Positions 19,567-24,114 of a DNA stretch of 51,903 nt are shown one piece after another. The stretch is from Beggiatoa sp. (GTDB taxonomy: Bacteria > Pseudomonadota > Gammaproteobacteria > Beggiatoales > Beggiatoaceae), in contig QKBZ01000073.1 in NCBI GenBank assembly GCA_003245895.1, forward strand, positions 1 through 51,903. Direction: 5' to 3'. Positions within the stretch are counted from its first letter, which is position 1. The number at the start of each line of letters is the position of its first letter. The notes under the pieces were generated by a model that ran no database searches, was not told the origin of the DNA, and saw only the letters and a list, made by a program, of their open reading frames with translations. The translations under genes and the position numbers were made by a program.

Positions 19567-22500
19567 ATGGCCTATTCGTTCACTGAAAAAAAACGTATTC
19601 GCAAGGATTTTGGTAAGCGTTCCAGCATACTAAAAGTACCTTATCTGCTCGCCACACAGATTGAATCCTACCGTAGTTTTTTACAAAAAGACACCCCTGC
19701 CGAAGCGCGTGATGATTTGGGATTACACGCTGCTTTTAAATCCGTTTTCCCAATTGTCAGCTATTCTGGCAATGCTGTGCTGGAATATGTCAGCTACCGC
19801 TTAGGTAAGCCAATGTTTGACGTGAAGGAATGTCAAGTACGTGGCATGACCTATGCTGCGTCTTTGCGCGTCAAAGTGCGCTTGGTGTTATACGATAAAG
19901 ATTCTAAAAACCGTGCGGTTAAAGATATTAAAGAACAAGAAGTCTATATGGGCGAAATGCCGTTAATGACAGACACTGGCACGTTTGTGATTAATGGTAC
20001 TGAACGGGTGATTGTGTCTCAGTTACACCGTTCTCCTGGGGTCTTCTTTGATCACGACAAAGGGAAAACCCATTCTTCTGGTAAATTATTATTCTCTGCG
20101 CGTGTAATTCCTTACCGTGGCTCTTGGTTAGACTTTGAATTTGACCATAAAGACTGCGTGTTTGTGCGGATTGACCGTCGCCGCAAACTGCCTGCCAGCA
20201 TTTTATTGCGTGCCTTAGGGTTTGATAATGAGCAAATGTTACGTTTGTTCTTTGATACCAATGCATTTGAATGCCGTGGCGGTGAGTTTTTCTTAACCTT
20301 AATTCCTGAGCGTTTGCGCGGTGAATTGGCCTCTTTTGATATTAAAGATGCCGAAGGTAATGTGGTGGTGGAAACCGGTCGTCGCATTACCGTGCGCCAT
20401 ATCCGTATTTTAGAAAACGCGCAAGTCACCTCGTTGAGCGTGCCACGCGATTATGTAGAAGGCAAAATTTTAGCGCATGATGTCATCAGCAGTATTGGTG
20501 GTGCCACGATTGCTAAAGCCAACGATGAATTAACGCCTGAGTTATTAGAAGCCTTTGTTGAACATGGTGTGGATAACTTCCATACTTTGTACACCAACGA
20601 CTTAGATCGCGGGCCTTATTTGTCCGATACTTTGCGTATCGATCCAACGACTACCCCATTAGAAGCCCATGTCGAAATTTATCGCATGATGCGTCCTGGG
20701 GAGCCACCGACCACTGAAGCGGCAGAGGCGTTATTTAATAACTTATTCTTCACCGCAGAACGCTATGATTTATCAGCAGTAGGTCGTATGAAATTTAACC
20801 GCCGTATTGAGCGGGTTAAATTTACCGATTTTGTTAAAACCTTCTATGAAGCAGGCTTATTAACTGAGCATGATATCTTAGCCGGTTTTAAACCGTTAAT
20901 TGATGAAAATATCTTATCGCGTCAAGGGATTGTCGATGCCTTTAGAAATATGGGCACTGCGTACACCTTGGCAGAAAAAGATTTATTAAAACTGTTAAAA
21001 GAAACTCATGTGTTTGCAGGGCAAGATATTTTCCCTGCTGAATTAGCGCAACAAAGCTTAAGCAATCACGCCAGCTTAGCAGCGCGTGAAGATGCTGCGG
21101 CCTTAGCACACAGTTTACAGTTATTAATCAATAACGAAATTGTGCATGATGCGGTGTTCACAAACGCTTATGAAGCGTTAAAAACACAGGTTAATGTAGA
21201 CGGTTTAGAAGGCAATGCCTTATTGCAAGGTCTGCAAGCCTTAATGGAATTGGGTGTATTCACCCCAGCAGCCTTATTAGACATTGCCCAAACTTTAGCC
21301 AATGTCGGTACTTTATCGCGTCAAGACATCTTAGACGTGTTACGGACTTTAATTAATATCCGTAACGGTAATGGTGTGGTGGACGATATTGACCACTTAG
21401 GCAATCGTCGGATTCGTAGCGTAGGCGAGATGGCGGAAAACCAATTCCGTATCGGTTTAGTACGAGTAGAACGCGCGGTGAAAGAGCGTTTAACCTTGGC
21501 TGAATCTGAAAACATTATGCCGCAAGAGTTGATCAACGCGAAGCCAGTGTCTGCTGCGATTCGGGAGTTCTTTGGTTCCAGCCAATTGTCACAATTTATG
21601 GACCAAAACAACCCCTTATCTGAAGTCACGCATAAACGCCGTGTCTCTGCCTTAGGGCCTGGTGGTTTAACTCGTGAGCGTGCAGGCTTTGAGGTGCGCG
21701 ACGTGCATCCGACTCACTACGGTCGGGTCTGTCCAATTGAAACGCCTGAGGGGCCAAACATTGGTTTGATCAACTCCTTAGCAGTGTATGCGCGTACTAA
21801 CGAGTATGGCTTCTTAGAAACGCCTTATCGTCGCGTGGAAAATGGTCGTGTCACCAGCCAAGTGGATTACTTATCGGCGATTGAAGAAGGCCGCTATGTG
21901 ATTGCACAAGCGAACGCCGAGTTAGACGAAGACGGTTGTTTAGTTGACGACTTGATCACCGCACGGCATGAGAATGAATTTACCTTGATGCCGCGAGATC
22001 GGATTGAGTACATGGACGTGTCGCCACGTCAGATCGTATCGGTGGCAGCCTCCTTAATTCCGTTCTTAGAACACGATGACGCGAACCGTGCGTTAATGGG
22101 TTCTAACATGCAACGTCAAGCAGTACCGACCATTCGTACCGAGAAGCCTTTAGTGGGTACTGGTATGGAACGCGCTGTGGCGGTTGACTCCGGTGTAACC
22201 GTGGTCGCTGAGCGGGGCGGTGTGGTTGACTCTGTGGATGCGGCGCGGATTGTGGTGCGTGCTAACGATGACGAAGCAGAAGCCGGTGAGTCAGGTGTAG
22301 ATATTTACAACTTAACTAAGTATGTACGGTCTAACCAAAACACCTGTATCAACCAAAAACCGTTAGTTCGTCCGGGTGACTTAATTGTCAAAGGCGACGT
22401 ATTAGCCGATGGCCCTTCTACTGACTTAGGTGAGTTGGCCTTAGGGCAAAATATGTTGGTTGCCTTCATGCCGTGGAATGGCTACAACTTTGAGGACTCC

Positions 22501-24114
22501 ATCTTATTGTCCGAACGGGTGGTGCAAGAAGACCGCTTTACCTCGATTCACATCGTGGAATTAAGCTGTATGGCACGCGATACCAAGTTAGGGCCAGAGG
22601 AGATTACCTCAGACATTCCTAACGTCAGTGAAGCTGCTTTAGGCAAGTTAGACCAAGCCGGTATCGTGTACATCGGCGCAGAAGTGCGTCCAGGTGACAT
22701 TTTAGTCGGTAAGGTTACGCCTAAAGGTGAAACCCAATTAACACCTGAAGAAAAACTGTTACGCGCGATTTTCGGTGAGAAAGCCTCTGACGTAAAAGAT
22801 ACCTCTTTGCGTGTACCTTCAGGTACCACCGGTACGGTCATCGACGTGCAAGTATTTACCCGCGACAGCGTGGAAAAAGATGCACGGGCGTTGCAAATTG
22901 AACAAACTGAAATGGATAAAATCCGTAAAGACTTACGCGATAAGTTACGGATTTTAGAAGATGATACCTTCCAGCGTTTAGAGCGGGTATTAGTCGGTCG
23001 TAAAGCCTTAAATGGGCCGAGAGGCTTAGGCGCCAATGCTGAAGTCACTAAAGCCTATTTAGATGGCTTAAGCCGCGAACAATGGTTTGAAATCAGCTTG
23101 CAAGAGCCAGAAATCAACGAGCAGTTAGAGCGTGCGGCGGAAGGCTTAAAAGAAGCGCGTCAACACTCTGACGAGTTGTATGAAGAAAAACGCCGTAAGT
23201 TAACCACGGGTGATGACTTAGCACCGGGTGTGTTAAAAATGGTGAAAGTCTATCTGGCAGTGAAACGTCGTATCCAACCGGGTGACAAGATGGCGGGTCG
23301 TCACGGTAATAAAGGTGTGGTCTCCATGATCGTACCTATTGAGGATATGCCGCATACCGCAGACGGCACACCGGTAGACATCGTGTTAAACCCATTAGGG
23401 GTACCTTCACGGATGAACATCGGTCAGGTGTTGGAAACCCATTTAGGTTTAGCCGCAAAAGGCTTAGGCATACAGATTGACCGGATGTTAAAAGCACAAC
23501 GAGAAGTCGCTGACTTACGCGAATTCTTAGGCAAAGTGTATAACGTCAGTGGTAAACGCGAAGATTTAGACAGTTTCTCTGATGATGAGATTCTGGAATT
23601 ATCGCGCAACTTACGCCGAGGCGTACCGACTGCGACACCAGTATTTGACGGTGCCAGTGAAGACGAAATCAAATATATGCTGAATTTAGCGGGTTTAGAG
23701 ACCAATGGTCAAACCCGTTTATTCGATGGTCGTACCGGTGAATTATTTGAACGTCCGGTCACGATTGGCTATATGTACATGCTGAAGTTAAACCACTTGG
23801 TTGACGACAAGATGCACGCACGTTCCACAGGGCCTTACAGCTTAGTGACACAACAACCGTTAGGCGGTAAAGCGCAATTCGGTGGTCAACGCTTCGGGGA
23901 AATGGAAGTGTGGGCACTGGAAGCTTACGGCGCGGCGTACACCTTGCAAGAAATGCTGACGGTGAAATCGGATGACGTAAACGGTCGTACTAAGATGTAT
24001 AAAAACATCGTGGATGGCGACCACCGTATGGAAGCGGGCATGCCTGAGTCCTTCAACGTATTGGTCAAAGAGATCCGTTCGTTGGGTATCGATATCGAGT
24101 TAGAACAAGACTGA
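19567..24114 (+). CDS. rpoB: RNA polymerase subunit beta with large internal insertion
   Basis: A 1515-residue beta subunit, about 170 residues longer than E. coli RpoB (1342). The start at 19567 has GGGAG upstream. The conserved framework is intact: [15 protein letters not shown], the rifampicin-pocket region [15 protein letters not shown] (from residue 670), [26 protein letters not shown], and the C-terminal clamp. The extra residues lie between MKFNR (408-412) and [10 protein letters not shown] (583-592), where E. coli has about 11 residues. The insert is helical in character and contains repeated LSRQ-x-I-x-D-x-x-R-like units. It lies just upstream of the [10 protein letters not shown] segment, on the beta lobe/fork side. 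The reading frame is uninterrupted. Confidence 0.98.

Follow-up and report, generated by a model that had tools for sequence, protein, structure and literature searches.

Lineage-specific inserts in RNA polymerase have been a long-standing puzzle. The rpoB gene of a Beggiatoa sp. poses this puzzle in a specific form, namely from what the long insert within its beta subunit arose and what it might do. The window considered here, which is the whole stretch of 51,903 nucleotides analyzed (contig QKBZ01000073.1), holds the sole rpoB found in the assembly. Both matches of this genome to PF04563 (beta) lie inside the gene, and all of its matches to PF04563 and PF04997 (beta') lie inside the rpoB operon. 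The order of this operon, rplK-rplA-rplJ-rplL-rpoB-rpoC with gene names assigned from the translations, is ordinary. The full-length equivalog match of the protein to TIGR02013 scores 1890.7 bits against a cut-off of 801. The start proposed by the open reading frame tool is a GTG two codons upstream of the ATG at 19567, from which residues are counted here. The features that frame the insert are the following.

19567..24114, + strand: rpoB, RNA polymerase beta subunit, 1515 aa from the ATG, TIGR02013 equivalog
20461..20523, + strand: beta-i4 hairpin loop, without the helicase interaction motif that is present here in other RpoBs
20788..20802, + strand: MKFNR, the last conserved residues ahead of the insert, aa 408-412
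20815..21288, + strand: the insert, 158 extra residues (aa 417-574) when aligned with RpoBs that lack it (MAFFT, 13 RpoBs)
21307..21363, + strand: native beta2-lobe helix unit, the presumed template, aligned to solved beta subunits
21385..21411, + strand: DIDHLGNRR, conserved, downstream of the native helix, position from the alignment

The insert and its place in the beta2 lobe

The stretch from MKFNR to the native unit as a whole occupies about 20803-21306. The original prediction had placed about 170 residues between MKFNR (residue 408) and residue 583, where E. coli would have about 11. Both figures agree with the present count, which gives exactly 170 residues here and 12 in the E. coli-type chain 7mkn_C (MKFNR at 401-405, LSK at 418). 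Removal of the insert leaves an RpoB of 1357 aa, and five of eight insert-free relatives have lengths of 1357-1365 aa. Because of this agreement in length, and because the beta-i4 loop aligns, the RpoB of the window seems to have retained beta-i4 in addition to the insert. The presence of homologous inserts in three genera rules out an assembly artefact. Thus, the insert is real, in frame and common to these three genera.

The DIDHLGNRR segment presumably holds D446 and R451 of E. coli, which belong to the core-recognition-element pocket. The insert site itself corresponds to residues 406-417 of 7mkn_C, or to about 408-419 in chains of 1342 residues. It had been expected beside the fork and rifampicin region but belongs to the beta2 lobe. 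This lobe, domain uD2, spans residues 153-226 and 343-449 in E. coli (Table 1 of PMC11515920), and the site falls in its C-terminal part, 343-449. The insertion had also not been linked to any known beta-subunit insert. In fact, it lies between a GRxKxN segment and the helix ahead of the conserved downstream segment, which is the known beta-i5 site (SI1, beta-ln5), where an unrelated domain is found in B. subtilis. In chain 6wvj_C, presumably that of B. subtilis, KINKKL is found at about 274-279 and NITPADII follows the insert. The two inserts therefore share the same point, with GRYKINKKL / NITPADIISSISYFF in 6wvj_C corresponding to GRMKFNRR here.

Distribution and kinship of the carriers

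A 313-aa query across the site matched rpoB in 36 of the 42 genomes of the family, and 36 proteins were extracted. The spacing between MKFN and DIDHL is 37 residues in 31 of them, which are insert-free, and is longer in the other five: 195 residues in the window and 194, 192, 326 and 321 in genomes G018, G021, G007 and G011, respectively. The window, G018 and G021 (three of the 36) share one kind of insert, with lengths of 158, 157 and 155 aa. G007 and G011 possess a second kind, of about 285 residues, at the same site. Homology between the short and the long inserts was not detectable (hhalign probability 4.6%, E 0.0088).

The family was counted by spacing, and a profile of the three short inserts covered the class and phylum samples. 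The original prediction had held that occurrence of the same insert in most gammaproteobacterial RpoBs would speak against it. The profile found homologues in two of 369 class genomes, G021 and the window's own, and in the window alone among 398 genomes of the phylum sample. A profile of the two long inserts detected only G007 and G011 among the 42 family genomes. A contig scan with two short peptide patterns found one named carrier, and the survey is non-exhaustive. Overall, the insert is confined to a few genera. Twenty-six genomes lacking an rpoB match were re-tested; 22 had no beta2-lobe family match and four had matches in frames of 218-334 aa, which is uninformative either way, and 37 further unmatched class genomes stand outside that re-test. 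Two genomes each gave two full-query rpoB matches (G353 on contigs C12 and C36, G364 on C128 and C132), possibly reflecting a second rpoB or a mixed assembly. Additionally, four RpoB frames of 1528-1793 aa, in which the start motif was not found, have normal lobe spacing (L157 in G008, L151 in G001, L154 in G025 and L152 in G035).

Within the class sample, an insert-free query matched 312 of the 369 genomes. Besides the window and G021, at least 53 class genomes (counted by eye) gave two separate matches in one gene, and in a re-search the gap between the two matches was about 14 to 93 residues, mostly about 20. Twenty such loci were fetched. Fourteen of the segments have 22 to 70 additional residues, and among the other six, G086 is without a long insert. 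Different inserts of about 70-90 residues occur at or next to the lobe loop in L097 (G148), L098 (G264), L096 (G362), L099 (G352) and L100 (G131), indicating that this site has received insertions repeatedly within the class. A serious rival to an adaptive explanation is that this loop is simply tolerant of insertions, that the helix next to it was multiplied several times through slippage or unequal exchange, and that selection does no more than keep the product foldable, without any partner. The acceptance by the loop of other, shorter inserts, located within a few residues of the site, in at least 53 further genomes of the class sample is in line with such non-adaptive growth, as is the lack of an insert in most family members.

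The RpoB tree was computed from 1,347 mostly gap-free columns and 43 rows (36 family members and 7 others). The window, G018 and G021 form a group with a bootstrap value of 89 and SH-aLRT of 75 (FastTree 0.96), and G007 and G011 form another with values of 100/100 (FastTree 1.00). A single clade of all five carriers was rejected under LG+G4 (p-AU 0.028), and the minimum number of changes on the RpoB tree is two. The inserts were gained either twice or once with losses; the AU test is not strong.

The inserted units and the native helix

The origin of the insert was approached with a PSSM of 19 columns, built from 34 native units of other genomes with the five carriers left out. The background comprised 73,853 windows from 187 proteins (77,219 aa) encoded in the window and on 29 contigs of the same genome. 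Four units were named.

20854..20910, + strand: inserted unit, best copy of the native helix; PSSM 19.17 bits, 0 of 73,853 background windows as high
20908..20961, + strand: inserted unit, 18 residues after the unit at 20854..20910; PSSM 5.63 (19-aa window), 10 of 73,853 as high
20965..21018, + strand: inserted unit, weakest of the four; PSSM 0.58 (19-aa window), 85 of 73,853 as high
21253..21309, + strand: unit straddling the MAFFT insert edge, 18 residues before the native unit; PSSM 9.83, 2 of 73,853 as high

The best inserted unit scores above the entire background, and the other three named units are in its top 0.12%. Two non-overlapping windows of at least 5.6 bits within a 158-aa segment were found in none of 2,476 background segments, and aa 417-574 contain two; a third such window, aa 563-581, straddles the downstream edge of the insert. 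When the scores of the top four windows in the 158-aa block were summed, the window and G018 exceeded all 1,290 background segments and 500 shuffles. In G021, whose block has one window only above 1 bit, the sum was reached by 0.39% of the background and 0.20% of the shuffles. Moreover, the best native-like unit in the long insert of G007 scores 18.57, which is above all background windows.

Local alignment of each insert with its own native unit was matched by none of the background segments for the window (0 of 853), G018 (0 of 856), G007 (0 of 508) and G011 (0 of 515), and by 0, 2, 0 and 0 of 500 shuffles, respectively. For G021 this alignment was not significant (24 of 865 background segments, 12 of 500 shuffles). 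When the native unit was taken from G024, which lacks an insert, neither G018 (28 of 856) nor G021 (66 of 865) gave a significant alignment. An 18-residue register links the named inserted units to the native unit. Specifically, autocorrelation with the native unit included peaks at offsets of 18 and 36 (and 6). At 18 or 36, none of 1,156 background segments equals the window, and 0.9% do so when any period of 12-29 is allowed. Without the native unit the autocorrelation is modest, as 1.3% of the background is as high at offset 18 and 8% for any period of 12-29. The long inserts have a weaker register at offset 18 (5.1% of the background for G007, 1.4% for G011).

Because the PSSM and register tests reach only about four of about nine inserted helices, as counted in an AF2 model, the claim of self-copying is limited to those. 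The remaining helices are too diverged or of other origin. The tandem self-copies of the original prediction are thus borne out in part: the four named units exceed chance and keep an 18-residue register, but only about four of about nine helices are recognizable as copies and the direct match in G021 is not significant. A further argument had been a 13-base DNA match. It is present at 20914-20926 and 21313-21325 but reflects little beyond the shared peptide LSRQ. When codons were resampled from the gene and the proteins kept unchanged, a match as long arose in 14 of 200 trials, compared with 0 of 200 when the insert protein was also shuffled. The codon-redraw control rules out this repeat as an independent sign of recent duplication.

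Judging from the scores and the register, the native lobe helix was probably duplicated in frame, with fast divergence thereafter giving rise to the insert. It is quite unlikely that a foreign helical domain was inserted instead and that its likeness to the native unit stems from convergence in N-cap and amphipathic helix patterns. A foreign source would suit the failure of about half of the helices to score as copies, the undetectable homology between the short and the long inserts, and the G021 result in the direct alignment test, which was not significant. However, the background of real proteins contains such helices, and still none of its windows reaches the best unit. In addition, 17 of 20 units score higher on their own native unit than on the median of 39 others, although the units are not independent and, among 40 native units, just two of the 20 score highest on their own. 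Nor was an outside homologue found above the cut-off in Pfam, NCBIfam, PDB sequences or viral contigs.

The original prediction had set self-duplication against a match to an unrelated known domain, and nothing in Pfam, NCBIfam or PDB sequences reached the cut-off or E 0.01 with the insert. Sub-cut-off matches were to KorB, SAM_SMF, DUF5344, Spectrin_Anc-1_2, RhoGEF, VipE, MgtE_N and TFIIA_gamma_N, and single PDB chains matched below threshold at E 0.25 and 0.5. The closest Pfam match of a long insert was FANCI_S2, a solenoid, at E 0.0069 and below the cut-off. An intein or mobile element was rejected: the Hint domain had no Pfam match at E <= 1 in RpoB or the inserts, the insert profile matched once in its own genome, and it had no match in viral contigs.

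A second large RpoB insert is found in G007 (aa 1479-1880, L033, 402 aa) and G011 (aa 1468-1706, L034, 239 aa). It aligns after residue 1157 of G010, a position that we take to be the beta-i11 site. The G007 insert includes a stretch of low complexity in which Glu, Pro, Ala, Ser and Thr abound. Close to the beginning of this insert, from aa 1497 on, a 37-aa segment, LHDFLAKIYASQGEILDADVLSDHEIVTLARYLSENV, matches the adjoining native segment as it occurs in the window, with a score of 70 against a background maximum of 38 (0 of 142). The match of the G011 insert to the native segment is weak (score 37; 1 of 304 background, 4 of 500 shuffles). The second insert of G007 likely contains another self-copy elsewhere in RpoB, and its match suggests that self-duplication may recur in this enzyme.

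Fold, possible role and comparison with known inserts

The insert is predicted to be all-helical. An AF2 model from a two-row alignment contains only helices in the insert, with block-mean pLDDT of 76-88 at model residues 101-160 and 52.6 overall. A 700-residue model, also from a two-row alignment and intended to position the insert relative to the lobe, again gave only helices in the insert, at a mean pLDDT of 41.4. With regard to the BEAN/BBM2 fold (CATH 3.90.105.10), the observation is that both models show only helices in the insert, at low mean pLDDT of 52.6 and 41.4. Foldseek and VIA-align searches of the PDB and BFVD with a low-confidence model gave no convincing fold match (Foldseek best E 0.66; best Z 4.6). 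As for an alpha-solenoid (HEAT, TPR, PPR), the period of 18/36 is present, no Pfam repeat family is above the cut-off, and the fold search relied on the low-confidence model.

Between the window and G018, identity is 49.7% in the insert and 88.9% in the rest of RpoB. The corresponding values are pN 0.32 and pS 0.77 for the insert and pN 0.068 and pS 0.71 for the rest, with synonymous sites near saturation. In the four pairs compared, pN of the insert exceeds that of the rest about 2- to 5-fold. Across the three short inserts, the polar/apolar class is kept in 100 of 121 variable columns, compared with 41.6 +/- 4.2 in shuffles. Thus, the insert is under purifying selection that preserves its polar/apolar pattern. 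The high pN would be expected of non-adaptive growth in a tolerant loop, whereas the persistence of the insert over three genera, with its polar/apolar pattern and a length of 158, 157 or 155 aa, is evidence against it. Growth of this kind is given an appreciable chance, well short of an even one.

By analogy with other inserts of the lobe, the insert may form a surface platform of the lobe for protein docking, which would recruit or tune a lobe-contacting transcription or repair factor, and to this we assign just under an even chance. Docking is favored because the same site docks PcrA in Bacillus and the lobe insert of E. coli is the main TraR contact on the lobe. Specifically, SI1 (beta-i5) of B. 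subtilis binds the C-terminal domain of PcrA, according to the accessible part of the report (PMC8318588). Similarly, the portion available of another study describes the E. coli lobe insert as the main lobe contact of TraR and the lobe as lining the downstream DNA channel (PMC6970531). This lining of the channel would also suit contact of the insert with nucleic acid, for example with downstream DNA as a clamp or bubble stabilizer, as would a match to the DNA-binding KorB domain that is far below the cut-off (E 0.14, 12.5 against 22.3 bits). However, no DNA-binding family is above the cut-off. Direct DNA binding is also less likely because the insert is neutral to acidic, its net charge including the native unit being -9 in the window, -3 in G018, +2 in G021 and -6 in both G007 and G011. 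A nucleic-acid role is thus regarded as very improbable. The explanation as a whole, a lineage-specific all-alpha repeat domain at beta-i5 that was copied from the enzyme itself and would serve as a docking platform, is judged to be evenly balanced between right and wrong. The 31 of 36 family genomes without the insert count against it, as does the fact that no partner was found.

A more specific version of docking concerns the beta-i4 hairpin. The helicase interaction motif, [VIL]-D-x-x-T-G-E-[VIL]-[VILT], has no match in the whole RpoB of the window or of the other four carriers. In the beta-i4 hairpin, the motif is strict in all seven family members that branch early, and the remaining 29 RpoBs have it in eroded form. 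Its Gly-Glu is absent from all five insert carriers and present in 22 of the 31 others (Fisher p 0.005, a test that ignores kinship), and the T/S-G-E version is found in 0 of 5 carriers and 14 of 31 others (p 0.13). The Tudor domain of UvrD was found in four of the five carriers. In the family as a whole, the UvrD/PcrA Tudor domain was undetected in 24 of 42 genomes, including all of genera g2, g17, g18 and g20. It may be that the polymerase twice in this family grew a helical-repeat arm by copying its own lobe helix, and that the arm took over factor docking from the beta-i4 hairpin, but this is considered unlikely. The takeover stays hypothetical because Gly-Glu has also been lost in nine of the 31 insert-free relatives.

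In the open literature searched, as represented by titles and abstract openings, no helical-repeat insert of RpoB is described for the family. An earlier notice is possible in the 2010 work of Lane and Darst, which is reportedly the reference survey of lineage-specific RNA polymerase inserts. The available text on variant beta' subunits of Beggiatoaceae has no match to 'rpoB' (PMC4679880). In the part available of another article, rpoB comes up a single time, where a Thiomargarita is said to have two copies (PMC4853749). In the present case, a helix of the polymerase itself appears to have supplied the material for a new domain next to it, at a site already known, and this in two lineages of one family. 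If confirmed, the inserts would form a natural series for following the birth of a domain inside an essential enzyme. Likewise, two unrelated beta-i5 domains would then allow one to ask whether the site itself selects for docking.

Several known inserts resemble that of the window in part. The gammaproteobacterial GPGIL...SDIIDVL inserts, which add 22 to 70 residues in 14 RpoBs, lie in the loop ahead of the same native helix. In contrast to the window insert, they lie about five residues further on (by eye), and none matched the window-insert profile among the 369 genomes. The B. subtilis insert, named beta-ln5 in PMC7749167, is likewise an accessory, lineage-specific element of the beta2 lobe (PMC8318588, PMC7749167), a region described in the consulted sections of PMC7749167 as a hot-spot of lineage-specific insertions. 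It differs in that it contains a helicase interaction motif, as far as its report was available (PMC8318588); the window insert is without this motif and has no sequence resemblance to it by eye. Moreover, most lineage-specific inserts of the bacterial beta subunit share one fold, BEAN, and the Firmicutes-type insert (Oceanobacillus, type 3) is such a domain according to the text available, whereas the window insert is predicted to be all-helical (PMC11515920). Although it has another insertion point and another repeated module, the beta-i4 (SI1) of E. coli, with its two tandem BBM2 motifs, is described in the accessible part of its report in terms that also fit the present case, as a beta2-lobe insert made of tandem module repeats (PMC2939025).
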